From Leptospiraceae bacterium (lineage in GTDB: Bacteria > Spirochaetota > Leptospiria > Leptospirales > Leptospiraceae): a DNA stretch of 64,000 nt. The position numbers and the translations under genes are program-made. The notes under the pieces were generated by a model. It was not told the DNA's origin. It worked only from the letters and a program-made list of their open reading frames with translations, and did not search any database. Where the stretch lies: the NCBI GenBank assembly GCA_022402465.1, contig JAKRSH010000034.1:62001-126000 (forward strand), given 5' to 3'. Below are positions 9,833 to 23,477 of this stretch, piece after piece (within the stretch, counting starts at the first letter, position 1; each line of letters opens with the position of its first letter).

Positions 9833-10744
9833 ATGAAATCCTTTACTTTGTTATATTTGCTAGTCTTCCTCATCCATTGCAAGGAATTTTTTCCATCCAT
9901 TCAATCACAGGATAAAAAACATTGGAATTTTACTTGGCCAGTTCACACGGACCAGATTTCAGATAGAGTATCATCTGTTTTTGGTGAATCAAGGTGGGAT
10001 CATTTCCATAATGGGGTTGATATTTCTTCGTATTTAGAAAAAGTCCATTCTATAGGAGAAGGTAAGCTTTTGTATACTCGGTATTCATCGGATGATCCCT
10101 TTCATGAAGAATGGGGTTCTGGTGATACAGTTTGGATAGATCATGGTAAGGGTGCCTATTCAGCATATTATCACCTTCATCCATCCCATGGTAACTTGGG
10201 GATAAGTATTCAAAATGGTCAAGAAATTGGAATCACTGGTAATACTGGTCACTCCAGTGGAGGGCATTTACATTTTGTACTAAGTTTAGAATATGGAAGG
10301 AAAATAGTGAATCCTCTCATCTATCTACCCTCTATCGTGGATGAAACAGCGCCTCTAATTGGTGGACTTTTCGTACATGTAGGTGAGAGTTACACAAATA
10401 TAAATTCCGGAGATAGTATTTCTTTATCCGATACTTTTCCATTTACCGTTTTAATCCAAGACAGTGGTGTGAGAAAGAGCCAAAGATTTGGTGTTCAAAA
10501 TGTCCAATTTAACTTAAATGGGAAACCTGTTCAAAAGAGTAATTTCAACTCCATCCAATTTGAAAATGAAGATTGGCTCAATGAAAATGGATTCAAGTTT
10601 AATGATCTATTTTTGAGAGACAGGTATTTAGTTGGAAATCTAGCCCTTCCATCAGGTGAACATACTATTGAAGTTGTAGCTACAGACTTTCATGGGAACA
10701 TGGCCGTGAAGAGTTTTACTTTCTATGTTACCAGGACTAAATGA
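9833..10744 (+). CDS. M23 family (LytM) metallopeptidase, probable lipoprotein
   Basis: A 303-residue envelope protein. It starts with a hydrophobic signal ending in FLIHC (Cys16), a plausible spirochaetal lipobox. The LytM domain spans about 35-165 with intact zinc ligands: His59 and Asp63 in HNGVD, and His145/His147 in GGHLHF, plus His114 in YYHLHP. Such enzymes cut cross-links in peptidoglycan peptides. Residues 165-303 form a beta-rich C-terminal domain. A broken paralogue of the last third of the protein lies at 13273, about 2.5 kb downstream, so the region has been rearranged. Confidence 0.85.
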
Positions 10745-13272: not shown

Positions 13273-13561
13273 TTGGAAATCTCGCACTTTCATCAGGTGA
13301 ACATACTATAGAAGTCGTAGCTACAGATTTTCATAGGAATATGGTTTATTTTGGATGATCCTCGCGAATTTGAAATCAGAAACCTATATTTGTCTGTGGG
13401 AGCACAGCGATGATGTTAAGTGATACAAGGTAGTCAGAATATATTAAATCCTTGGAGATAGGAAGCAAAACTACAGTCTATTCGATTGTGCACTAGATCA
13501 GAATTTTCGAACAGAAGGGAACACTGTGGTTTTTGTTTATAGAAATGAAAAGATGTGGTAA
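13273..13561 (+). pseudogene. Degraded M23-peptidase paralogue fragment
   Basis: Positions 13273-13344 align without gaps to 10632-10703 of the M23 peptidase gene with 8 differences in 72 bases by my count, six of them synonymous ([23 protein letters not shown] against [23 protein letters not shown]). The frame then breaks. Further coding-like pieces follow in changing frames (DDPREFEIRNLYLSVGAQ, then NYSLFDCALDQNFRTEGN to a TAA at 13559-13561). This is the broken 3' part of a paralogous gene, or the displaced original 3' end of the upstream gene; the synonymous bias favours a once-functional paralogue. Confidence 0.65.
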
Positions 13562-13596: not shown

Positions 13597-14310
13597 TTAT
13601 AGATGAGTAATGAATTCTAACCATGATTCTGGTAATAATTCCAACATACTTGATTCAATAACACGGTCAAAACCTGTGATTGTCAAGATTCCATAAACAA
13701 TTAAGAGAAATGCCATAGCATACTTTCCAATTGAATAGATCCATCTTAAGCCTCTTCTGTTATTCTGGACCAATCCTCTGGAAAGGTAGGCAATCCCAAG
13801 CAAAGGAATCGAAGCACTGATTCCGAATACTAACATTATAAGACTACCCATAAAAATCTCACCCTCTTTAGCAACCAAGGTAACTGCAATTCCGAGCGTA
13901 GGTCCCGAACATGGACTCCATATAAATCCCAGGAGAATTCCTAATATTACAAACCCCAAAGATGAATTCGTCCCAATTTTACTTGCAAAATGATTCGATC
14001 TATTTGCTATTCCTTGTAACTTCAAGGCTAATTGATCATTCAAATATGGTATAATTAGAACTAAACCAAATAAAATGAATAAAACAGCACTAAAAATTCT
14101 CAGACCTTCTTGACCTACTCCTGCTACTTTTGTCGTTAGTGCAAATGTAACACCTAAGACTACAAAAGAAAAAATCAGACCAGCAGAGATATAGACTGGT
14201 CCCCACTTATTTTTATTCAGAGCACTTCCTACTATAAATGGTAATGCGGTAATTACACAAGGAGACAAGGATGTAATTAAACCGGCTGCAATAGCAATCA
14301 AGAAGATCAT
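13597..14310 (-). CDS. ccdA: CcdA/DsbD-type cytochrome c biogenesis transmembrane protein
   Basis: A 237-residue protein with six hydrophobic segments. The paired Cys signature is LSPCVITALPF (about residue 18) and IWSPCSGPTLG (about residue 131), which in CcdA/DsbD carries electrons from cytoplasmic thioredoxin across the inner membrane. The gene starts 12 bases downstream of a periplasmic thioredoxin-like gene, with AGGA ahead of the ATG. The pair probably forms an export pathway for reducing power, here under the shared TTGTAAGAA promoter. Confidence 0.85.
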   Translation of the reverse strand: MIFLIAIAAGLITSLSPCVITALPFIVGSALNKNKWGPVYISAGLIFSFVVLGVTFALTTKVAGVGQEGLRIFSAVLFILFGLVLIIPYLNDQLALKLQGIANRSNHFASKIGTNSSLGFVILGILLGFIWSPCSGPTLGIAVTLVAKEGEIFMGSLIMLVFGISASIPLLGIAYLSRGLVQNNRRGLRWIYSIGKYAMAFLLIVYGILTITGFDRVIESSMLELLPESWLEFITHL

Positions 14311-14322
14311 TAAATTCCTATT

Positions 14323-14733
14323 TCACTTCTTGGTATTCTTATCAAGAAAAGATGCAATCTTTTCTGCTCTAGTTTCACCTATCAGTTCATCGATGATTTT
14401 ACCATTTTGAAAGATTGCGATTGTTGTTCTTTGGTTTACTTTAGGACCTGCAAATGTATCTATCGCATCCCAATCATAAGCAAAAATGGAAATTTTTGAA
14501 TTGTATTTTGGCAAGAGAGAATCGAGGGCTTTGAGCTGAGCCATGCAAGCGGGACACCAAGTTGCATTAAATGCTACTGCTATTTTTTTGCCTGATTCCA
14601 TTTGTTGATTGTATTCATTATTATCCAAAGTCGGTATAGAAAATTTATATTTTGCACTACTAGCCATCGCAAAATATGTTCCTGAGCAAAAAAGTAAAAA
14701 CATGGGGATTAATATTTTAAAAATTAAATTCAA
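14323..14733 (-). CDS. Exported thioredoxin-like protein
   Basis: About 136 residues with a signal peptide or N-terminal anchor (MNLIFKILIPMFLLFCSG) and a thioredoxin fold with active site FNATWCPACMAQ (Cys60 and Cys63). The TTG start at 14733 is chosen because AGGAGA lies 7 bases upstream and because the promoter motif at 14763-14789 lies between it and the alternative TTG at 14805. It is co-transcribed with ccdA, so it is the likely periplasmic acceptor of CcdA electrons, for methionine sulfoxide or disulfide reduction. The specific target is unknown. Confidence 0.8.
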   Translation of the reverse strand: MNLIFKILIPMFLLFCSGTYFAMASSAKYKFSIPTLDNNEYNQQMESGKKIAVAFNATWCPACMAQLKALDSLLPKYNSKISIFAYDWDAIDTFAGPKVNQRTTIAIFQNGKIIDELIGETRAEKIASFLDKNTKK

Positions 14734-14762: not shown

Positions 14763-14789
14763 GTCGTAATTTTTGTATGTTTCTTACAA
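14763..14789 (-). promoter_or_regulatory. Predicted ECF promoter of the thioredoxin-ccdA unit
   Basis: On the minus strand TTGTAAGAA (14781-14789) is followed after 14 bases by CGAC (14763-14766), about 30 bases upstream of the chosen start. The same arrangement occurs upstream of four other transcription units between 14.7 and 19.4 kb. Confidence 0.6.
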
Positions 14790-14896
14790 AAAAAATAATT
14801 TGCAAAGTAGCTCAAGCTATTGATATCTTAATCAAAATCTAATGCTCTTATAGATTTGAGTTTAATTCAATTTCTTTTATCGGTTAAATAATTTAT

Positions 14897-15133
14897 TTAA
14901 TCTAATTCCTTATTTTCGTTGGAAGAATCCTTTTTTAGTGATTTAATAATAGCATAAGAACTATAAGTAGAAACTAAAAAAGGAACTAAGTAGGTAAGGG
15001 CTACTTTAAAAATGGGAAAGGATCCCCATTTTCCCAACACAAAAAGTTCATAGTTGTTGATAAGGACTAGAATTGTTCCTACTAACATTGAGGTTTTTAA
15101 ACCACGAGCTATGATCAATCTATTATTGGGCAT
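14897..15133 (-). CDS. nrtS: NrtS-like small nitrate/nitrite transporter
   Basis: A 78-residue protein with two transmembrane segments. The pattern ARGLKTSMLVGTILVLINNY, then KVALTYLVPFLVSTYSSY, matches the NrtS family of small nitrate/nitrite transporters described in marine cyanobacteria. The tail is charged. There is no nitrate or nitrite reductase gene in the window, so the substrate is uncertain; it could instead serve another anion. It lies downstream of the HD-GYP gene on the same strand (65-base gap). Confidence 0.6.
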   Translation of the reverse strand: MPNNRLIIARGLKTSMLVGTILVLINNYELFVLGKWGSFPIFKVALTYLVPFLVSTYSSYAIIKSLKKDSSNENKELD

Positions 15134-15198
15134 AGCCCTCTTTTAAGAAATCTACAAATTTTTCCTTTGAGATACCTCTATATCTGTTGATCATTGAA

Positions 15199-16062
15199 CT
15201 ATGCTACTAACTCCATTTTATTTGGGAATAAAGATATCATAGAATCAATCACTGATGCATCTATATTTGTTTTATATACAGTGGTTTCTGGTTTTGCTAT
15301 TTCTTTAAATTCCAAAGAAAATCCAGTTTTGTTCTTTCTATCTTGGTGGAGAAGAAAATTACCCGTGCAGGCACGGCAGACCCCGACATCTCCGTCAGTG
15401 GTGTGAGAAGTTAATTGTATCGGTGCATCACAGGACGGACAAGTCAATAAAGGAATTCCTTCATCGCTATGCCCCACAATATGTTCAATTTTTTCGAGAG
15501 GAATGCCAAAGAACTTTCTCAAAATTCCTGAATCGAATTGCTTGCCTTCTTCTTCTTTGAGAATAGATATAGCCTTGGAAATAGACATTCCTTTTCGATA
15601 AGGACGAATGGATGTCATTGCATCTAAGGCATCACAGATTCCAACTATTTTTGAAAACAGTGTCACCTTGTCCCAATCCATTTGATTTGGATAGCCATTG
15701 CCACTTGGCATTTCATGGTGCTGTTCAATTACATCTCTTACAAGTGGAGCCAATGGGTGTGCCTGGATGATGTCAATACCAATTTTAGGATGAGTTTTTA
15801 TTATTTCATATTCACTTTCATCCAGCTTGGATTTCTTATTGAGAATAAAGTCCGGAATGCCCACTTTTCCCAGATCATGAAGAAATGCACCTGCCATGAG
15901 TGTGGACAATTCTGTCTGATTGAGACCAAGCTCGATTCCAACTAACTTAGAAAACTGAGAAACCCTCCAAAGGTGTCCAGCTGTATATGGATCTTTCGCT
16001 TCAACGACATTAGCTAATACAAAAAGGGATTTTAAAAGGTCTTTTTGAATATCTAATTTCAT
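15199..16062 (-). CDS. HD-GYP-type phosphohydrolase with C-terminal zinc ribbon
   Basis: A 287-residue cytoplasmic protein. The HD-GYP domain covers about residues 10-190: HLWRVSQFSKLVG, FLHDLGKVGIPDFIL (HD dyad and GIPD), THPKIGIDII, EQHHEMPSGNGYP (degenerate HHE..GYP). Such domains hydrolyse cyclic di-GMP. Residues 208-245 hold two CxxC pairs (CPSCDAP and CRACTGN), a zinc ribbon not typical of the family. There is no membrane or receiver domain. It is separated from the 48-aa membrane protein gene upstream by 3 bases, so it probably shares the TTGTAAGAA promoter. Confidence 0.85.
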   Translation of the reverse strand: MKLDIQKDLLKSLFVLANVVEAKDPYTAGHLWRVSQFSKLVGIELGLNQTELSTLMAGAFLHDLGKVGIPDFILNKKSKLDESEYEIIKTHPKIGIDIIQAHPLAPLVRDVIEQHHEMPSGNGYPNQMDWDKVTLFSKIVGICDALDAMTSIRPYRKGMSISKAISILKEEEGKQFDSGILRKFFGIPLEKIEHIVGHSDEGIPLLTCPSCDAPIQLTSHTTDGDVGVCRACTGNFLLHQDRKNKTGFSLEFKEIAKPETTVYKTNIDASVIDSMISLFPNKMELVA

Positions 16063-16065
16063 AAC

Positions 16066-16212
16066 TTAATCTTTTCGGACCTTCCAATAGTTAGCAGCTA
16101 TTACAAGAAATCCCAATCCAGTTATGGCTGGAGGCAAACCTTGAACTTTCCATCCAAGAAAAATCATCCCAAGACCTAATGTAAACATAATCAAAGCTGA
16201 ACTTTTTTCCAT
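16066..16212 (-). CDS. Small 48-residue two-segment membrane protein
   Basis: A short gene with an ATG at 16210-16212 preceded by AGAGG and ending three bases before the HD-GYP start. The product has two predicted transmembrane segments (ALIMFTLGLGMIFLGW and PAITGLGFLVIAANYW) and a basic tail WKVRKD. No family was recognised. It is the first gene after a minus-strand TTGTAAGAA-N14-ACAC element, so it is probably a real member of the stress regulon, and the HD-GYP and NrtS-like genes may be read from the same transcript. Confidence 0.6.
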   Translation of the reverse strand: MEKSSALIMFTLGLGMIFLGWKVQGLPPAITGLGFLVIAANYWKVRKD

Positions 16213-16262
16213 CTTATACCTCTAGCAGTAATTTTTATAGTTTGATTCTAATTAATTATTAT

Positions 16263-16289
16263 GTGTCAGGTGGAAGATAATTCTTACAA
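16263..16289 (-). promoter_or_regulatory. Predicted ECF promoter (leftward) of the 48-aa protein unit
   Basis: Minus-strand TTGTAAGAA (16281-16289), 14 bases, then ACAC (16263-16266), about 50 bases before the start of the 48-residue protein. It forms the left half of a 25-base inverted repeat with the rightward element, so two -35 boxes face away from a 7-base centre. Confidence 0.6.
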
Positions 16290-16296
16290 AATTAAA

Positions 16297-16323
16297 TTGT
16301 AAGAAGTATCTTTTAAATTACAC
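16297..16323 (+). promoter_or_regulatory. Predicted ECF promoter (rightward) of the YHS gene
   Basis: TTGTAAGAA (16297-16305), 14 bases, then ACAC (16320-16323), about 50 bases upstream of the YHS-domain gene. Together with the leftward element it gives divergent promoters. Confidence 0.6.
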
Positions 16324-16372
16324 AAAAACTCAATCAGTAAATCTGATTGAATTAAAATTAAAGGAATTTCAA

Positions 16373-16792
16373 ATGATTAAAAAAATTTTAGTCTTAATTA
16401 GCTTAATCTTTACTTTTGCTCTTTATGCAGAAGATAAAGCGTCTTTAGGTGGGTATTGTCCAGTAGCCTATGTAAATATGGGTAAAGCCATTAAAGGTGA
16501 TGCTAAATTTTCTAGTAGTGCTAATGGTAAACTTTATTATTTCGTAAATGCAGATATAAAGAAAATTTTTGATAAAAATCCAGAACAATTCACAAAACCT
16601 ATTCAATACGATAGTTTTTGCGCAACTGCAATAGCACTAAGTAGCAACAAAATTGCATCTGATCCAGAAATTTTTTCAGAAGTAGACAAGAAATTTTATT
16701 TCTTTTCCAATAAGGAAGCAAAAGAAATGTTCGATAAAGATCCTAAAGAGTTTATCAAGAAAGCCGATAAAAACTGGAAATCTCTAAAATAG
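16373..16792 (+). CDS. Exported YHS-domain-like protein
   Basis: A 139-residue protein with a signal peptide (KKILVLISLIFTFALYAEDK). A YHS-type repeat follows: LGGYCPVAYVNMGKAIKGDA then GKLYYFVNADIKKIFDKNPEQF, and a second copy SDPEIFSEVDKKFYFFSNKEAKEMFDKDPKEF. YHS domains occur in metal-handling and heavy-metal proteins, and GYCPVAY carries the Cys. Start: AAAGGA lies upstream of the ATG. It has its own TTGTAAGAA promoter and a hairpin after the stop, so it is probably a single-gene unit of the stress regulon with a possible metal-binding role in the periplasm. Confidence 0.75.
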   Translation: MIKKILVLISLIFTFALYAEDKASLGGYCPVAYVNMGKAIKGDAKFSSSANGKLYYFVNADIKKIFDKNPEQFTKPIQYDSFCATAIALSSNKIASDPEIFSEVDKKFYFFSNKEAKEMFDKDPKEFIKKADKNWKSLK

Positions 16793-16802
16793 ATTAGTAT
16801 AA

Positions 16803-16846
16803 AAACACAAGTAGCCTGCACAGAAAAGTATGGGTTATTTGTGTTT
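16803..16846 (+). terminator. Hairpin after the YHS gene
   Basis: AAACACAA (16803-16810) pairs with TTGTGTTT (16839-16846), extended imperfectly by GTAGCC/GGTTAT. It lies 11 bases after the stop codon. There is no long T-run, so it is only a candidate terminator. Confidence 0.4.
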
Positions 16847-17009
16847 CCATGAATTTACTGAATTCAATCAATAAGTGAAACAGCGAATCAAATTGAAATA
16901 TAGGAAGACTAGGATACCACTGGAAACAAGTATATAGTTACTCTGAAATTAGAAAAATTCTTTCAAAAAAGAAATCCTTTATTAAAGAAAATGTAGAAAA
17001 CAATTTAAC

Positions 17010-18866
17010 CTACACTTCAAATAAATTCATTTTCTTCTTCATGTCTAATGCCATATTTGAAATTGATTCGGAAGAGGCACTTAATTCTTCCATCCCAGCT
17101 GCATTGGACTGTGTAGAATCGTTGAAGTTGTAAATTGCCTGACCAATTTCTAGTGTTGCAGATTTAACTTCTTTCATTGAAGATTCAATGCCTTGTGAAA
17201 TCTTCAGAATGGTATTGTTACTAACGATAATGTTATTGCTATAAGACAATTGAGTTTCAATATTATCACTAACTGAATTAACTAAAGATCCAAAATTCTG
17301 AATACCATGAATTAAAACCTGAAAGATTTTTGCAGTATCCTCAATGGTATTAGTTCCTTTACGAATATCTTCATCGCTTTTGCGAATATACGAATCGATT
17401 TCTTTAATTGACTTTGCAGTTTTACTAGCAAGTTTACCGATTTCTTCAGCAACTACAGAAAAACCCTTACCGTAATCACCGGCTCGGGCAGCTTCAATAG
17501 CAGCATTTAGCGCTAAAAGATTGATCTGGTCGGATATGCTTGTGATAATTTCGATCACGGATCGGATTTGTTCGGAGGACTTATCAATTGATTCAATACT
17601 TGATTTCATAGATTCAAGGGATGATTGACCTTTCTTTGAGTCAGTTGTCATTGTTCTCACAGATTGAATTGTTGAATTAATATTTAACTTTACTTTATTA
17701 TTAGCATCAGTGAGTGCATTAATGTATTCTTTTAATAAATGAATCTGATGTACTTGATCCTCCGTTTTAACTGTTATATTTTCAAGAGTTGCGTTAATCT
17801 GCTCAATCGAGGCCGATATTTCCTCAGAAGATGAAGCTTGAGTTTGCGCATTTTGCGTAAGAACAGATAAAGATGTTGTCATTTCTTCAGAAGAGTTAGA
17901 GCCATTATTAGAAACATGTAGAATATCCGAAATAATCATCGAAAGTTGGGATATCATTGAATTAATATTCATCGAAAGTTTTCCAATATCATCCGGGTAA
18001 ATAGCAATAGTTTGATTATGCAAATTACCTTGCGCTAGTTTACCAAGTAAACTATTTACCTCGACAAGCGGAGAAAGTTTTGTTTTTAAGTAAAAGAAAA
18101 AGAATAAAGATACAAAAAATGTTGTCAAACCTGCAATGAGTGATTGATTGATCATATTTTTTAAAATAATTTCTTCATTTGAGGAAACTGAAAAATCGCT
18201 ACCGCTGCTCACTGAAGATATAAACAAAGATTCGTTCAGCTTAGCGGAGAATAGAATTATTATTATAGAAAGTGAAGCAATACCAATGGACAATATAAAA
18301 GGAGCTGATCTTGATATAGATCGAAAATAGGTTCTATGATCCTCATCTTCAATTAAAGGTCGATCAAAATAATTTAGTTTTCCTATTTTCGATAGTAAAA
18401 TTTCAACAGCAATATGTGTGTATGCAGTATTGAGAAGGGTAGCAAATAATAATATTGAAATTAAATAATAGTTTTGAATTGAAGAAGATCCACCCATTAT
18501 CGAGAAGAATGATAAAGTTATTGTAGATCCTATCAACCATCGAAAAAAATTCAAGAGTGACAAATTTCCTGGTAGAGATATATACGATTTCCATCCTAGT
18601 GAATAATCTTTAACATCAGGAAATTTATTTTTCTCAATTAGACTAAGATAATCTTTTAGCCCTTTAGAATAATGAAAGAACTTAAGAAAAAACGGTATCA
18701 TATAAAAAATGAATCCTATTGATACACCGATTAGAAGTGAAAAATATTGCTTTCCATTTGGTTCCACAAAATAGAATAAAAAGATTAGAGTTAGTGGAAC
18801 CACAAAAAAAGTTGAAAATCCTTCGGAAAGAAATAAAAGGGATAAACTAAGCGACCTTTTTTTCAT
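17010..18866 (-). CDS. Methyl-accepting chemotaxis protein with multi-pass membrane input domain
   Basis: A 618-residue receptor. The N-terminal 280 residues hold about six hydrophobic segments rather than the usual two flanking a periplasmic sensor. A HAMP domain lies near 275-330, then the coiled-coil signalling domain with the conserved tip [40 protein letters not shown] (about 465-505). It relays signals to CheA/CheW. No CheW-binding pentapeptide is visible at the C-terminus. There is no TTGTAAGAA element upstream, so it is probably not part of the stress regulon, only embedded in the region. Ligand unknown. Confidence 0.9.
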
Positions 18867-18909
18867 CTCGATATGTTTATCTCAATTTAAATATCATTTA
18901 TTTTTAAAT

Positions 18910-19191
18910 TTATTGAATTTCCACTCCATTCCAGAAAGCTATTCTTCCTTCGATAGCCTTTGCTGAAGGTGATTTAATTGATTTATATTCCCATGCAGCG
19001 TTATTGTTTACTTTTCCATCAACTACAATATCATTGTAAGATGCCGTACCTTTCCACGAGCAGACAGATGTCATCGTTGATGGACTTAGGTATTCTAATT
19101 TCACTGATTCTTTAGGGAAGTACATTGCCTTGTCTACTTCAATTGTATCCTCTGATTCTGCGATGACTTTTCCATTCCATATTGCCTTCAT
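18910..19191 (-). CDS. DUF427 domain-containing protein
   Basis: A 93-residue protein matching DUF427 along its whole length: AIWNGKVIAESEDTIEV, YFPKESVKLEYL, TSVCSWKGTASYNDI, AWEYKSIKSPSAKAIEGRIAFW. The family is a small beta-barrel of unknown biochemical function with a conserved CxWKG motif. The start has GGAG about 8 bases upstream. A variant of the shared promoter (ATGTAAGAT-N14-CTAC) lies at 19226-19252 on the same strand. Confidence 0.85.
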   Translation of the reverse strand: MKAIWNGKVIAESEDTIEVDKAMYFPKESVKLEYLSPSTMTSVCSWKGTASYNDIVVDGKVNNNAAWEYKSIKSPSAKAIEGRIAFWNGVEIQ

Positions 19192-19225
19192 GTTTAAAAA
19201 TCTCCTATTTTCCTTTACCGCTTTA

Positions 19226-19252
19226 GTAGTTTAAATCTACAGAATCTTACAT
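19226..19252 (-). promoter_or_regulatory. Predicted ECF promoter of the DUF427 gene
   Basis: Minus-strand ATGTAAGAT (19244-19252), 14 bases, then CTAC (19226-19229), about 35 bases before the gene start. It differs from the TTGTAAGAA consensus at two positions but keeps the spacing and the AC of the second box. Confidence 0.5.
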
Positions 19253-19333
19253 ATCCTTATTAAAATTATTTCATACTTTCTAATAATCTGCAATCGACAC
19301 CTTTAAGTTTTAAAATTTATATGAATGAATTTT

Positions 19334-19360
19334 TTGTAAGAATATCAATTCGAAATACAC
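19334..19360 (+). promoter_or_regulatory. Predicted ECF promoter of the AhpD-like/YceI/bufferin unit
   Basis: TTGTAAGAA (19334-19342), 14 bases, then ACAC (19357-19360), 20 bases before the ATG at 19381. Its position inside the longer open frame from 19321 is what excludes the earlier ATG as the start. Confidence 0.6.
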
Positions 19361-19380
19361 TTTATTGTAATGGAGAATCA

Positions 19381-19932
19381 ATGAATAAATTCAAGACAAA
19401 GCTAAATCCAGAAAAAGAAGATACAGAGAGTAAATCAGTACAAGAAATATTTATTACTACAAAGAAAAATCTGGGAACTATTCCTAACATGTATAAGAAT
19501 ATGGGCGTTTCTTCAGGTTTGCTAAGTACCTACATACATGGATATACAGAATTGAGGGGAAGCAAGATTTTTAAACCTCACGAAATGGAAGTGATTTTCC
19601 TTACTATAAGCAAGGAGAATGCTTGCGATTATTGTCTAAAGGCTCATAGTTTTATTGGGAGAAAAATGACTAGCGTTCCCGAAGATGTTATTCAAGCGAT
19701 TCACACCAGAGGATCTATTTCTGATCACAAATTAAATGCATTGCATGAATTTGTTGTTCACTATTTGAATTCAAAAGGGTGGTTGCGTCCAGAAGAAGTG
19801 GAGAAATTTACAGATGCGGGCTTTCCAGAGGAAGCTATTCTAGAAATTATATTAGCTATTTCTGTAAAGACAATCAGTAATTATTCGAATCATATTTTTG
19901 ATACAGAAATTGATTCAATGTTTAAAAATTAG
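19381..19932 (+). CDS. AhpD/carboxymuconolactone decarboxylase-like protein
   Basis: A 183-residue protein with the AhpD-type redox centre ENACDYCLKAHSFIGRK (about residues 78-94, CxxC with downstream His). It matches the peroxidase-related CMD branch and probably reduces peroxides or passes electrons to a peroxiredoxin. The ATG at 19381 is chosen: GGAG lies 5 bases upstream and the predicted promoter overlaps the alternative start at 19321. It is the first gene of a plus-strand run, followed 9 bases later by YceI. Confidence 0.8.
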   Translation: MNKFKTKLNPEKEDTESKSVQEIFITTKKNLGTIPNMYKNMGVSSGLLSTYIHGYTELRGSKIFKPHEMEVIFLTISKENACDYCLKAHSFIGRKMTSVPEDVIQAIHTRGSISDHKLNALHEFVVHYLNSKGWLRPEEVEKFTDAGFPEEAILEIILAISVKTISNYSNHIFDTEIDSMFKN

Positions 19933-19941
19933 GAGTGAATG

Positions 19942-20568
19942 ATGAGAACTACAACATATATAAAAAAGATTACACAGGCTATCTCAATAGGATTGTTAGT
20001 TACGGGAGTAAGTTTATCTGCAGATACAACTTACAAAATTGACAAAGAGCATACAAGCTTAGGTTTTGAAATAGACCACTTAATGATTAGCACAGTCACA
20101 GGCAGATTCAAAACCTTCGATGGGGAAATCATTATTAGTGATGATAAGAAGAAGCTATTGTCTATTCAGGGATACGCTTTAGCTAAATCAATCGACACAG
20201 ATAATTCAAAAAGAGATGAGCACCTTAGATCTAAAGATTTTTTTGATGCTCAAAAATTTCCGAAGCTTGAATTCACGATAAAAGAATTAGATATATCTTC
20301 GGGAAGCTCATCTAACGTTAAAGGCAAGCTTACGATACGAGGAATAGCAAAAGAAGTAAAAGTAAAGATTAAATTTAAAGGCACCGTAACGGATCCTTGG
20401 GGTGCTGAAAAACTTGCCATTGATGCTGAAAGCACAATCAATCGTAAAGATTTTGGTTTAACTTGGAACGAAGCATTGGAGTCTGGTGGAGTTATGGTTG
20501 GTGAAGATGTTAAAATCGTAATCAAGGTGGAAGCTGATCTTGTGGAAACCAAGAACTCAAAGAAATAA
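19942..20568 (+). CDS. YceI family exported protein
   Basis: About 208 residues: a signal peptide ending near SLSADT, then the YceI lipocalin-like beta-barrel (YKIDKEHTSLGFEIDHLMISTVTGRFKTFDG, DEHLRSKDFFDAQKFPKLEF, KLTIRGIAKEVKV). The family binds isoprenoid or amphiphilic molecules in the periplasm and is induced by acid and other stresses. Two adjacent ATGs exist (19939 and 19942); AGGAG is better spaced for the second. It sits between the AhpD-like gene (9 bases) and the bufferin-like gene (37 bases), so all three are probably one transcript. Confidence 0.85.
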   Translation: MRTTTYIKKITQAISIGLLVTGVSLSADTTYKIDKEHTSLGFEIDHLMISTVTGRFKTFDGEIIISDDKKKLLSIQGYALAKSIDTDNSKRDEHLRSKDFFDAQKFPKLEFTIKELDISSGSSSNVKGKLTIRGIAKEVKVKIKFKGTVTDPWGAEKLAIDAESTINRKDFGLTWNEALESGGVMVGEDVKIVIKVEADLVETKNSKK

Positions 20569-20605
20569 TTTAAATAAAATTATTAAATCAAAAAAGGAAA
20601 ATAGA

Positions 20606-20899
20606 ATGGAGACAAAAAATATAATTCTCATGGGGGCATTACTTGCCATGACTCAAATGGCTGGATGTGCTTCAGCGCAATCTACGGAAGCCACTAATCA
20701 AGCTGGAAAATGCTATGGAGTGGCAGGCCCTAAGCAAGGTGATTGCGGAGGAAAGGATCCAAAAACAGGAAAAACATGGAGCTGTGCTGGTCAGAATCCA
20801 ACAGCAGATCTTGGCTGGAAGAAAATGACTAAAGAAGAGTGTGATGCGGCTGGTAAACACAATTCAGCAACAACTAAAAACTTTGTTGCCAACAAATAA
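20606..20899 (+). CDS. DUF2282 (BufA1 bufferin)-like lipoprotein
   Basis: A 97-residue protein with a lipoprotein signal (ALLAMTQMAGC, Cys21) and then the four-Cys pattern of DUF2282: KCYGVAGPKQGDCGG (Cys36, Cys47), WSCAGQ (Cys60), MTKEECDAAG (Cys79). DUF2282 proteins (bufferins) are substrates of MNIO (DUF692) enzymes that modify the core Cys, and they buffer copper in the periplasm. Here the predicted product is lipid-anchored instead of soluble. Start: AAGGA upstream of the ATG at 20606. Directly downstream is a broken DUF692 gene, so any modification would need an enzyme from elsewhere. Assignment is by motif recognition. Confidence 0.65.
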   Translation: METKNIILMGALLAMTQMAGCASAQSTEATNQAGKCYGVAGPKQGDCGGKDPKTGKTWSCAGQNPTADLGWKKMTKEECDAAGKHNSATTKNFVANK

Positions 20900-20915
20900 A
20901 AAAGATAATTCTTCT

Positions 20916-21293
20916 TCGGTTGGTCTTTCTTTCTGAGAGCCCAATCGAGTAGAATTTTTAGGTAATAAATTAGATATAGATTTTATCGAAATTATTACTG
21001 AAAATTTTTCATACAATCAGGTTCCTGATAGGGACTTTATTGCAAGCTTCAGTGAATCTTATCCACTCCTTTTGCATAGTTTAACTATGAATATGGGATG
21101 ATTGGATGATTTGGAGATTCCCTATTTTAATAAAATAAACTCACTATTTAAAGAAACCAATCCATTATTCATAACAGATCATTTGTGTATGACCAGGCAC
21201 AATGGAAAAAGCTCTTTCGACTTACTTCCTATTCCTTATACTAAGAATATGATTAATCATCTTCAAGAGAGATATTTACGATTACAAGATAGA
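20916..21293 (+). pseudogene. Broken MNIO/DUF692 (BufB-like) gene, N-terminal half
   Basis: One continuous frame shows clear DUF692 features interrupted by two TGA codons (20934-20936 and 21099-21101). Pieces in order: VGLSF, then DIDFIEIITENF, then FSESYPLLLHSLTMNMG, the second stop, then FKETNPLFITDHLCM and DLLPIPYT, ending in LRLQDR at a TGA near 21293. The C-terminal half of the roughly 270-residue TIM barrel is missing. MNIO enzymes use iron to convert Cys of bufferin precursors to heterocycles. The first stop could be a CGA-to-TGA change. The neighbouring DUF2282 gene supports the assignment. Confidence 0.75.
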
Positions 21294-21503
21294 TGAAATG
21301 GACGAAGTGAATTTTTATTTTGATGCTCTTGATACATCGCTTAGATTATTTAAAATATGGCTATGATGTCAGAACAAAAAATACCCTTGAGACAATTTTT
21401 CTAAAAACTAGAAATATAATGGGAGTTAATATAAGAAATATTTCTGGTAAAGAATATTTTTTCATGGAATGTAGAAACTTGTATATGTACTGAACCTCCG
21501 AAA
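21294..21503 (+). pseudogene. Decayed coding remnant, unrecognised
   Basis: Two coding-like segments in different frames: KIDEMDEVNFYFDALDTS ending at a stop near 21365, and then VRTKNTLETIFLKTRNIM through FFMECRNLYMY to a TGA near 21494. They do not continue DUF692 in any way I can see and were not assigned to a family. The frame change near 21360 suggests a small indel. Confidence 0.4.
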
Positions 21504-21526
21504 CAATGTATTGTATCATTTTTCAA

Positions 21527-22050
21527 ATGAATCAAAATTCAAAAATTTTAATCTTGAATAGAGAAGGTCATTCATTAGTAGGTGCGGCGGTAGTTTTTGC
21601 AGCTAAGCATTTGCCAGATGTAAAAGCTATCCTTACAATTAGAGTCCCTTCGGATCCTAGGCATGAAGAACATCTACTAAAGGATAGTATAAACGATATT
21701 GAAATAAGTGGATGTGCTATTGTCGATATCGGAGGAAGAAATTTCACTATCAAAAAACAATTCTTGGAAGATATTCGAAGTCATAGTCTTCCTGAAGCTT
21801 TGAAAGAATTGAAAAAGCCTCTCTTGGTTTTGCATTCCCCCAAGATGTAATTGTAGGAATCGATAATGCTCGTAAGATATTTGAATCTGCTTACCATTCC
21901 AAGAGCTTTGTATCTTTGGATGGAGCCAATCATTTGCTATCTGATTCGCAAGATTCGCAATTCGTAGGAAATATGATAGTCTCTTGGATAACAAGATATC
22001 TCCCAATTGAGGAAAAAAACCTTAGACTGAAAGATCAAGAAATCAAGTGA
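21527..22050 (+). pseudogene. Frameshifted, truncated alpha/beta hydrolase (OsmC-linked type)
   Basis: From an ATG at 21527 the frame encodes the middle of an alpha/beta hydrolase of the kind fused to OsmC: GHSLVGAAVVFAAKHLPDVK (nucleophile motif, with Val in place of the second Gly), IRVPSDPRHEEHLL, VDIGGRNFTIKKQFLEDI, LLVLHSP. At the C5 run 21837-21841 the frame is lost. One added C restores QDVIVGIDNARKIF, then KSFVSLDGANHLLS and VSWITRYLP, ending at 22050. The N-terminal strand region and the OsmC domain are absent. It is probably a former member of the redox-stress cluster. Confidence 0.7.
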
Positions 22051-22081
22051 ACTTGTGGATTACAAAAGAAAAATACACATC

Positions 22082-22360
22082 TCAAATTTTACCATGTGCT
22101 TTACTTTCTAAATTATGTAGAATGCGAACTTTCATATCTGTCGGCATATGTGGCGATCCGGAAAGTTTTCCTTCCTTATCTGGAAGAGTAATGATTGAGT
22201 GGAAGCCTTTGCACATTTCGCACATATAGAGATGGAGTTTCAACTGGAATTTTTTTATCATTCCAATAGAAATCTGGTCTCGTTGGAAGGAAAGAAGTTC
22301 TGAGACTTCATTGCAGGAGAGCATCCATTTCCCTTTTCCTTTTGTGCAGACATTAGACAT
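22082..22360 (-). CDS. Zinc-binding (ZAS-type) anti-sigma factor
   Basis: A 92-residue cytoplasmic protein with the zinc anti-sigma pattern Cys16, His43, Cys47, Cys50 (HLYMCEMC). It probably binds and silences the ECF sigma factor encoded immediately upstream. Its start overlaps the sigma gene by 8 bases, the usual translational coupling, with AGGA upstream. The Cys/His cluster makes it a candidate thiol- or metal-sensitive switch, as in RsrA- and ChrR-like factors. No transmembrane segment is present, so the signal would be cytoplasmic. Confidence 0.75.
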   Translation of the reverse strand: MSNVCTKGKGKWMLSCNEVSELLSFQRDQISIGMIKKFQLKLHLYMCEMCKGFHSIITLPDKEGKLSGSPHMPTDMKVRILHNLESKAHGKI

Positions 22361-22895
22361 TTGAAATTCCTTTTCCTTCCATGCAGATCTTCAATTGAAT
22401 CCGTATTCTATGTAATAATACATGTAGATTAGACGTAGAGATATCCAATTTCTTACAAATTTCAGAAGAATTCATTTGTTCAAATTCTCTCATTTTATAA
22501 AGAATTCTATGTTGGTTAGGTAAAGTATCTATACAGTATAACAAAGTATCCCATATTAAGGAATTTTCTAAGTTTTCATAAATAGATTTGCGTGAATCTG
22601 GTTGATTATTGATCCAGAAGCCAGAATCATCAAAAGCATTTAACTTAATTTCAGATTCAGATATTACTCTAGAATTCTTATATTTTTTTCTATAGATTTC
22701 ATAAATTTTATTCTTCAAAATCCCGATTATCCATGTGCTAGGGCTGGAGTCTCCTCGGTATTTCTCCCAGGATTGGATTGCAACAAGGAATGTATCTTGA
22801 ATCACGTCCTCAATTTCTTCAGGATCACTTAAACGTGAACGAGCGTAATTGTATAGAAGATCAGAATATTCATTGAATAATCTTGTTATATCCAT
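22353..22895 (-). CDS. ECF sigma factor
   Basis: An ECF-family factor of 180 residues with region 2 (LFNEYSDLLYNYARSRL, EEIEDVIQDTFLVAIQSWEKY, STWIIGILKNKIYEIYRK) and region 4 (LPNQHRILYKMREFEQMNSSEICKKLDISTSNLHVLLHRIRIQL). Two adjacent ATGs exist (22898, 22895); GAGGA is better spaced for the second. ECF factors paired with zinc anti-sigma proteins control DUF2282/DUF692 operons in other bacteria (for example the Neisseria sigma/MseR pair), so this is the likely controller of the AhpD-YceI-bufferin unit and the other TTGTAAGAA promoters. This link is inferred. Confidence 0.9.
   Translation of the reverse strand: MDITRLFNEYSDLLYNYARSRLSDPEEIEDVIQDTFLVAIQSWEKYRGDSSPSTWIIGILKNKIYEIYRKKYKNSRVISESEIKLNAFDDSGFWINNQPDSRKSIYENLENSLIWDTLLYCIDTLPNQHRILYKMREFEQMNSSEICKKLDISTSNLHVLLHRIRIQLKICMEGKGISNV
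22432..22458 (-). promoter_or_regulatory. Promoter-like motif inside the sigma gene, ahead of the anti-sigma gene
   Basis: Minus-strand TTGTAAGAA (22450-22458), 14 bases, then CGTC (22432-22435), about 70 bases before the anti-sigma start. The exact 9-mer and spacing match the regulon motif, with a classic ECF CGTC second box. It also encodes part of region 4 (CKKLDIS), so coincidence is possible. Confidence 0.35.
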
Positions 22896-23477
22896 CATGT
22901 CCTCATAATGTAGAAAGATTAGAAATACAATTTGTTATGAAATTAAACTTTAACGTTAGCCATGGATTGACTTTCATTTAATTTTAAATCTCAATGTAGA
23001 AGTATGAATCAATCTGGTTTTTAATTGAAAGAAGTTCATTTTATAGTTTTGAATTTTTAAGCAGTGTTAGAGTTATTTTGAATTTTAGCTAAGACTTTAT
23101 GATTTCTATTTTAATAAATACTTTGCAATTAGTCAAATAAAAAATTTGTGATAAGTTTATATGCCTGCACCAGCTCTTCCTTGGCTTAGTAAAATGATAT
23201 TTAGTTTAGATTTTATAATCATTTTCTCATTTCCACTTTAGTTGCACCATTCGATAAGGATGACTGGGATGGTCTTTTGGTAGAATCAAATTATTTAGGT
23301 CTTAAGAATATAGAGACTATGGAAAATTTTTAAATCGATACTAATTTATATCCATTCTTTTCTTATCTGATAACTTTCATTTTACGATATTCTTGAACAT
23401 GAATTAGAGTTGATAAGAAAAAAAGTAGCAAGGTGCTTACAGTAAGTTTTGGAAGGATAGTTAGTAATTTAGAAAAA
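22896..23477. other. 0.58-kb stretch without intact genes
   Basis: No intact gene is visible. A coding-like scrap in one frame at about 23206-23333 (LVAPFDKDDWDGLLVESNYL followed by GLKNIETMENF and a stop) looks like the end of a lost gene but was not assigned. No good match to the TTGTAAGAA motif lies in front of the sigma gene, so its own promoter is unclear. The stretch ends at the tRNA-Ala gene. Confidence 0.4.

Follow-up and report, generated by a model that had tools for sequence, protein, structure and literature searches.

The 64-kb window analysed here is a stretch of a Leptospiraceae contig that contains a compact island in which the genes for an extracytoplasmic function (ECF) sigma factor and a putative anti-sigma protein lie close to several transcription units with a common promoter-like motif (Table 1). 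The sigma factor consists of 181 amino acids and has only regions 2 and 4; matches to Pfam Sigma70_r2 and r4_2 and to TIGR02937, all over cut-off, place it in the ECF class (group IV). The protein encoded directly 3' of it, by an overlapping gene, has 92 amino acids and matches NCBIfam antisigmaE at 7e-10, under the 50-bit cut-off of that model. Its residues C16, H43, C47 and C50 are invariant across 8 homologues and form the C..HxxxCxxC pattern of zinc anti-sigma (ZAS) proteins, to which we assign it on the basis of the HxxxCxxC motif, the N-terminal cysteine and the gene position. An AlphaFold model of the single anti-sigma sequence reached a pLDDT of 41, too poor to show a fold, and a profile search of the PDB with this protein gave no match. 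The pair at 22082-22898 is thus probably an ECF sigma factor with a cytoplasmic, RsrA/MseR-like ZAS anti-sigma protein.

The motif TTGTAAGAA-N14-MSAC, in which MSAC denotes (A/C)(C/G)AC, is present as four exact copies in the window, compared to a mean of 0.09 in dinucleotide-shuffled sequences. All four are packed in 4.6 kb and each faces a gene start, the distances to the adopted starts being 29 nt (site at 14763), 50 nt (16263), 49 nt (16297) and 20 nt (19334). An earlier note on this DNA had placed the motif before these four units with identical spacing, which we could confirm. It had also used the motif to decide two ambiguous starts, and both choices appear sensible: TTG 14733 is preferred for the thioredoxin gene because the in-frame upstream TTG 14805 would place the promoter inside the gene, and ATG 19381 is adopted for the AhpD-like gene. 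The sites at 16263-16323 have the layout of divergent promoters whose -35 boxes stand back to back, 7 bp from each other, in a near-perfect inverted repeat. The thioredoxin and AhpD sites are separate from each other and from this repeat. Two further window positions with moderate matrix scores, 6147 and 59461, were rejected as both are within open reading frames (ORFs).

The specificity of the motif was examined by pattern searches with the reversed pattern as control. In the 3.99-Mb source genome the exact motif occurs 5 times and the reversed pattern 0 times; the fifth copy is in an ORF, and every intergenic exact copy of the genome sits in the island. Besides the four sites, 30 of 32 matches with one mismatch or better are in ORFs, and no convincing gene start follows the other 2. 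With the relaxed pattern TGTAAGA-N17-AC, for which there are 34 matches versus 39 for the control, all five island sites (5/5) are promoter-placed and 24 of the 29 others are within ORFs; one relaxed match, at locus L104, was rejected because it lies 2 bp 5' of an ORF start, which is too close. Among 47 other genomes of the class we counted 15 exact copies in total (mean 0.3, at most 2 per genome), 12 of them within ORFs. The motif is therefore a local, gene-oriented feature of the island, and the regulon appears to be confined there. This specificity is important because a word-sharing test on six upstream regions gave a p-value of only ~1/300 in this AT-rich DNA (31-35% GC), so that the case rests on the genome-wide distribution together with a promoter in a relative, genome G159.

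Because the genus is represented by the source genome only and the seven other genomes of the family lack the sigma factor, conservation was sought among relatives drawn from the order, class and phylum sample. The best sigma orthologue of the phylum sample (49% identity) is encoded in G159, which belongs to another family. There, genes for the sigma factor, a ZAS anti-sigma protein, EgtB and EgtD (NCBIfam 7.8e-150 and 5e-83, the latter slightly below cut-off) follow each other on one strand, and a DUF427 gene lies 2.5 kb off on the opposite strand. This DUF427 gene is preceded, 25 bp 5' of its ATG, by CTGTAAGAA-N14-CGAC, the only occurrence of TGTAAGAA-N14-CGAC in the 3.8-Mb G159 genome, at ~2.8 kb from the sigma orthologue. 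When held out of the matrix, the site scored higher than all window positions except the four sites themselves. We consider it the strongest evidence for the predicted recognition of the motif by the window sigma factor. The same genome has GTAAGAA-N14-CGACTAC 34 bp upstream of a thiolase gene (L122, G159:C2:9875-9899), possibly a second regulon member.

The orthologous promoter also bears on the DUF427 gene of the window. The earlier note had reported a two-mismatch form of the motif before this gene, and such a site, ATGTAAGAT-N14-CTAC, is indeed present 34 nt 5' of the ATG; both mismatches fall in the first box, the second box is CTAC rather than ACAC or CGAC, and by itself the site is not significant, since 23 positions of the 64-kb window equal its score with a leave-one-out matrix. 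We thus distinguish five units, four with strong sites and one, DUF427, supported by orthology; the sigma operon is not counted among them.

The weakness of the DUF427 site is one of several observations that weigh against a regulon read by the neighbouring sigma factor. The earlier note had counted six units, of which we found five: upstream of the sigma operon no motif-like site was detected (best matrix score 3.4 versus 18.4-18.6 for real sites), while autoregulation is known for neisserial sigma-E and Caulobacter sigma-F. That note had named a lack of genome-wide enrichment among the results that would refute it, and at one mismatch this is indeed what the scan showed (36 matches versus 42 for the reversed control), although all intergenic exact sites are in the island; it is for this reason that we speak of a local rather than a global regulon. 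Together, the sites at 16263 and 16297 make up a single inverted repeat, TTCTTACAA-AATTAAA-TTGTAAGAA, one arm each, with the spacer sequence TATCTT common to both (extended by TATCTT/AAGATA; hairpin z -4.7 as DNA); they are consequently not fully independent and may share an origin. Finally, the sigma factor was absent from 7/7 other genomes of the family examined, and the more distant sigma homologues (31-39% identity), apart from that of G159, are not accompanied by the motif.

Three other explanations have to be weighed. The sites could be genuine ECF promoters that are read by another ECF sigma factor of the genome rather than by the product of 22353-22898. The 19 sigma-like candidates that a first look at the genome yielded and the missing motif at the sigma operon would fit such a scenario; nevertheless, we consider it improbable, as this sigma gene is only 3 kb away, the single strong site of G159 lies near the orthologue of exactly this sigma factor, and the recognition helix of region 4 (NLHV.LHR) is common to just these two proteins among nine aligned homologues. 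Alternatively, a dimeric transcription factor might bind TTGTAAGAA as an operator half-site, with the inverted repeat at 16281-16305 as the full site. This is considerably less probable still: TTCTTACAA-N7-TTGTAAGAA does form a perfect inverted repeat of 9 bp with flanking extensions, but the other sites, including that of G159, are single halves, and all face genes with AC at a constant distance, neither of which a dimer operator requires. Ordinary housekeeping (sigma-70) promoters sharing a -35-like TTGTAA by chance are very improbable, for although TTGTAA is close to TTGACA and the region is AT-rich, the hexamers at 17-nt spacing (CGACTT, ACACAT, ACACAA and ACACTT) are not TANNNT, and the exact motif hardly occurs in the rest of the genome and the class.

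Table 1. Predicted promoters, genes and gene remnants of the island. Positions refer to the 64-kb window.
Feature	Position	Strand	Evidence
CcdA/DsbD transmembrane thiol electron carrier, thioredoxin unit	13597..14310	-	Pfam DsbD_2 1.2e-16
Exported thioredoxin-like protein, start TTG 14733 with AGGAG	14323..14733	-	Pfam Thioredoxin 1e-11
Predicted ECF promoter 1, TTGTAAGAA-N14-CGAC, thioredoxin-ccdA	14763..14789	-	Pattern scan
NrtS-like nitrate/nitrite transporter, probably end of 48-aa/HD-GYP unit	14897..15133	-	NCBIfam NrtS 1.1e-6, above cut-off
HD-GYP-type (HD_5) protein, unit of 48-aa gene	15199..16062	-	Pfam HD_5 8.5e-27
48-aa membrane-type small protein, first gene of HD-GYP unit	16066..16212	-	ORF list; no family match
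Predicted ECF promoter 2, TTGTAAGAA-N14-ACAC, left arm of divergent pair, 48-aa/HD-GYP unit	16263..16289	-	Pattern scan
Predicted ECF promoter 3, TTGTAAGAA-N14-ACAC, right arm of divergent pair, YHS gene	16297..16323	+	Pattern scan
Exported YHS-domain (seleno)protein-family protein	16373..16792	+	NCBIfam YHS_seleno_dom 2.3e-25, above cut-off
MCP gene, after DUF427 on same strand	17010..18866	-	
DUF427 protein	18910..19191	-	Pfam DUF427 8.3e-28
Predicted weak ECF promoter 5, ATGTAAGAT-N14-CTAC, DUF427	19226..19252	-	Matrix score; backed by strong orthologous G159 promoter
Predicted ECF promoter 4, TTGTAAGAA-N14-ACAC, AhpD-like/YceI/bufferin unit	19334..19360	+	Pattern scan
AhpD-like/peroxidase-related protein, start ATG 19381 with GGAG	19381..19932	+	TIGR01926 6.7e-11, below cut-off
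YceI-family periplasmic protein	19939..20568	+	Pfam YceI 1.1e-43
BufA2-like bufferin precursor, 4 Cys and lipobox-like MAGC	20606..20899	+	NCBIfam BufA2 8.2e-7, below cut-off
Bufferin maturase remnant (MNIO, DUF692), in-frame stops, C-terminal half missing	20907..21290	+	
BufC (DUF2063) short remnant	21329..21457	+	tblastn 44% over 43 aa
Zinc anti-sigma (ZAS), C16/H43/C47/C50, no obvious membrane segment	22082..22360	-	NCBIfam antisigmaE 7e-10, below cut-off
ECF sigma factor, regions 2 and 4, overlaps anti-sigma gene	22353..22898	-	Pfam Sigma70_r2 6.5e-18, r4_2 8.9e-9
Motif look-alike: fifth TTGTAAGAA with near-match, coding sequence within sigma, not promoter	22432..22458	-	Pattern scan and ORF position

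The promoter of Streptomyces SigR differs from the window motif. The likeness seen between SigR/RsrA and the window pair is that of the ZAS pattern, with one N-terminal cysteine and HxxxCxxC, and the Cys-to-His spacing described for MseR and RsrA is 26, compared to 27 in the window anti-sigma (PMC2893595). Neisseria meningitidis sigma-E/MseR is closer, as it likewise combines an ECF sigma factor with a following small cytoplasmic ZAS protein (Cys ... HxxxCxxC) and a very small regulon on redox and repair genes (PMC2893595, PMC3240639). The promoter of this sigma factor, which controls seven genes, is GTMAGBWTT-N12-13-CGTCTAAH, with 21-22 nt from GTMAG to the first bases of the -10 (PMC2893595); the 21 nt from GTAAG in the window match this distance, whereas the -10 is CGAC or ACAC instead of CGTC. 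The targets also differ: its own operon and msrA/msrB in Neisseria, and trx-ccdA, YHS, AhpD/YceI/bufferin, DUF427 and HD-GYP genes in the window. In Haemophilus influenzae, RpoE2/HrsE resembles the window pair in having a small cytoplasmic MseR-related anti-sigma, in controlling redox-repair neighbours and in being hardly autoregulated, while the genes under its control are msrAB and that of a DMT transporter (PMC7907618). Small, local regulons are usual for ECF/ZAS systems of the neisserial sigma-E and RpoE2 kind. Caulobacter crescentus sigma-F/NrsF shares the presence of bufferin-type genes (DUF2282/DUF692) in an ECF regulon that is linked to metal stress, and its promoter, GTAACC-N16-CGAA, is similar in shape (22 nt to the -10 compared to 21); however, NrsF is a six-helix membrane protein rather than a ZAS protein, the bufferins are of the Buf1 (DUF2282) type and the sigF operon is autoregulated (PMC3511200). 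Altogether, spacing, orientation, genome-wide specificity, the G159 promoter and the neisserial sigma-E spacing lend good support to the proposal of the earlier note that one ECF sigma factor reads these promoters.

Gene content near sigma homologues was compared as well. A YHS protein gene follows sigma-ZAS in G151 and G175, in G053 and G203 sigma-ZAS comes after genes for BufA2 and an MNIO maturase, and DUF427 and EgtB are encoded near sigma in G159 and G103. In G113 and G053, the BufA2 homologues encoded next to sigma score above the NCBIfam BufA2 cut-off, and at two loci (L061:8080-10740 and L062:480-3230) BufA2, an MNIO maturase with a C-terminal HvfC-like part, an ECF sigma factor and a ZAS protein are encoded in an apparent operon. 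The motif was not found in the bufA upstream regions of G053, G113, G194 and G203, and a motif-like site in G113 (L058:1320) was rejected because it is within an ORF. No thioredoxin homologue was found near the sigma homologues of relatives by tblastn, and the sigma scan of named genomes gave a remote match to Kaistella as its sole result.

The bufferin genes of the island appear to be partly decayed. With 29.1 bits the window BufA stays below the BufA2 cut-off of 60, and it has four cysteines besides the lipobox cysteine rather than six. Known bufABC clusters (PMC12452194) resemble the locus in their BufA2-like precursor, and intact bufA-bufB-bufC paralogues are present elsewhere in the source genome, but only a remnant of bufB is left in the window and a predicted ECF/ZAS-type promoter precedes the cluster. 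According to the bufferin survey, sigma factor and NrsF genes are found in Buf1, not Buf2, clusters (PMC12452194). The local cluster has no intact MNIO maturase beside the precursor; one is encoded in the same genome at G000:C34:95853-96632. This gene belongs to an intact paralogous cluster (G000:C34:88000-104000, L120:4801-9448) with egtD and egtB on one strand and DUF427, bufA, bufB and bufC on the other, at which the ECF motif was not found. Compared with the window copies, the DUF427 protein of this cluster is 60% identical and its BufA 71%. Both BufA2-like precursors (20606-20899 and L120:7512-7805) have four, not six, cysteines, and the lipobox-like MAGC is found in the window copy only. 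The maturase of the other cluster could act in trans on the window BufA.

Two features lie outside the predicted units. Beside the left edge of the island, a peptidase-like gene (9833-10744) has its 3' part duplicated 2.6 kb away, as a 72-bp direct repeat (10632-10703 and 13273-13344, 89% identical). A hydrolase-like ORF at 21506-22050, which separates the bufferin remnants from the anti-sigma gene, appears, from its translation, to be frameshifted near 21848; its first part has no Pfam match.

Based on what can be read from the sequence, namely the sites and their specificity, the families to which the genes belong, the ZAS residues and a promoter conserved with an orthologous sigma factor, we put a probability of roughly 0.8 on the explanation as a whole, including the assignment of the sigma/anti-sigma pair: the neighbouring ECF sigma/ZAS switch would drive five local gene sets via one promoter code. 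We infer the window sigma factor as the reader of the sites, as well as the inducing signal and the outputs. The reduced, zinc-bound anti-sigma protein would hold the sigma factor, which would be freed when the Cys/His zinc site is oxidised or when copper or another thiol-binding metal displaces the zinc. The RNA polymerase carrying it would then initiate ~6-8 nt 3' of GTAAGAA-N14-(C/A)(G/C)AC and switch on the thioredoxin-CcdA, 48-aa/HD-GYP/NrtS, YHS, AhpD-like/YceI/bufferin precursor and DUF427 units, the last perhaps with the MCP gene. The products may serve to restore thiols in the envelope, to buffer metal and to tune c-di-GMP signalling. A response to thiol oxidation or metal is suggested by homology, the ZAS motif and the gene content; the signal should not be assumed, since oxidative exposure did not raise neisserial sigma-E expression (PMC2893595).

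While small redox regulons under an ECF/ZAS switch are already known, the promoter variant, its cross-family conservation with an orthologous sigma factor, the mix of target genes and the predicted ECF/ZAS control of BufA2-type genes are new. More tentatively, a spirochaete ECF/ZAS group might couple ergothioneine synthesis/DUF427 and BufA2-type bufferins via a cross-family GTAAGAA-N14-CGAC promoter; the DUF427 and bufferin genes of this genome would then form an unregulated set and a stress-induced set, with the induced lipoprotein bufferin relying in trans on the maturase of the other locus. The functions of Leptospira sigma factors are mostly unresolved according to a 2025 review (PMC12655853), and little is known of the targets and promoter codes of ECF sigma factors in spirochaetes; here, a sigma factor, a zinc anti-sigma protein, a candidate code and five units are found together in ~9 kb. 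This compact layout and the conservation of the code in another family make the regulon directly testable in a heterologous reporter. If true, ECF/ZAS control would be joined to BufA2 bufferins, a link that is absent from the bufferin survey, and to ergothioneine/DUF427 genes.

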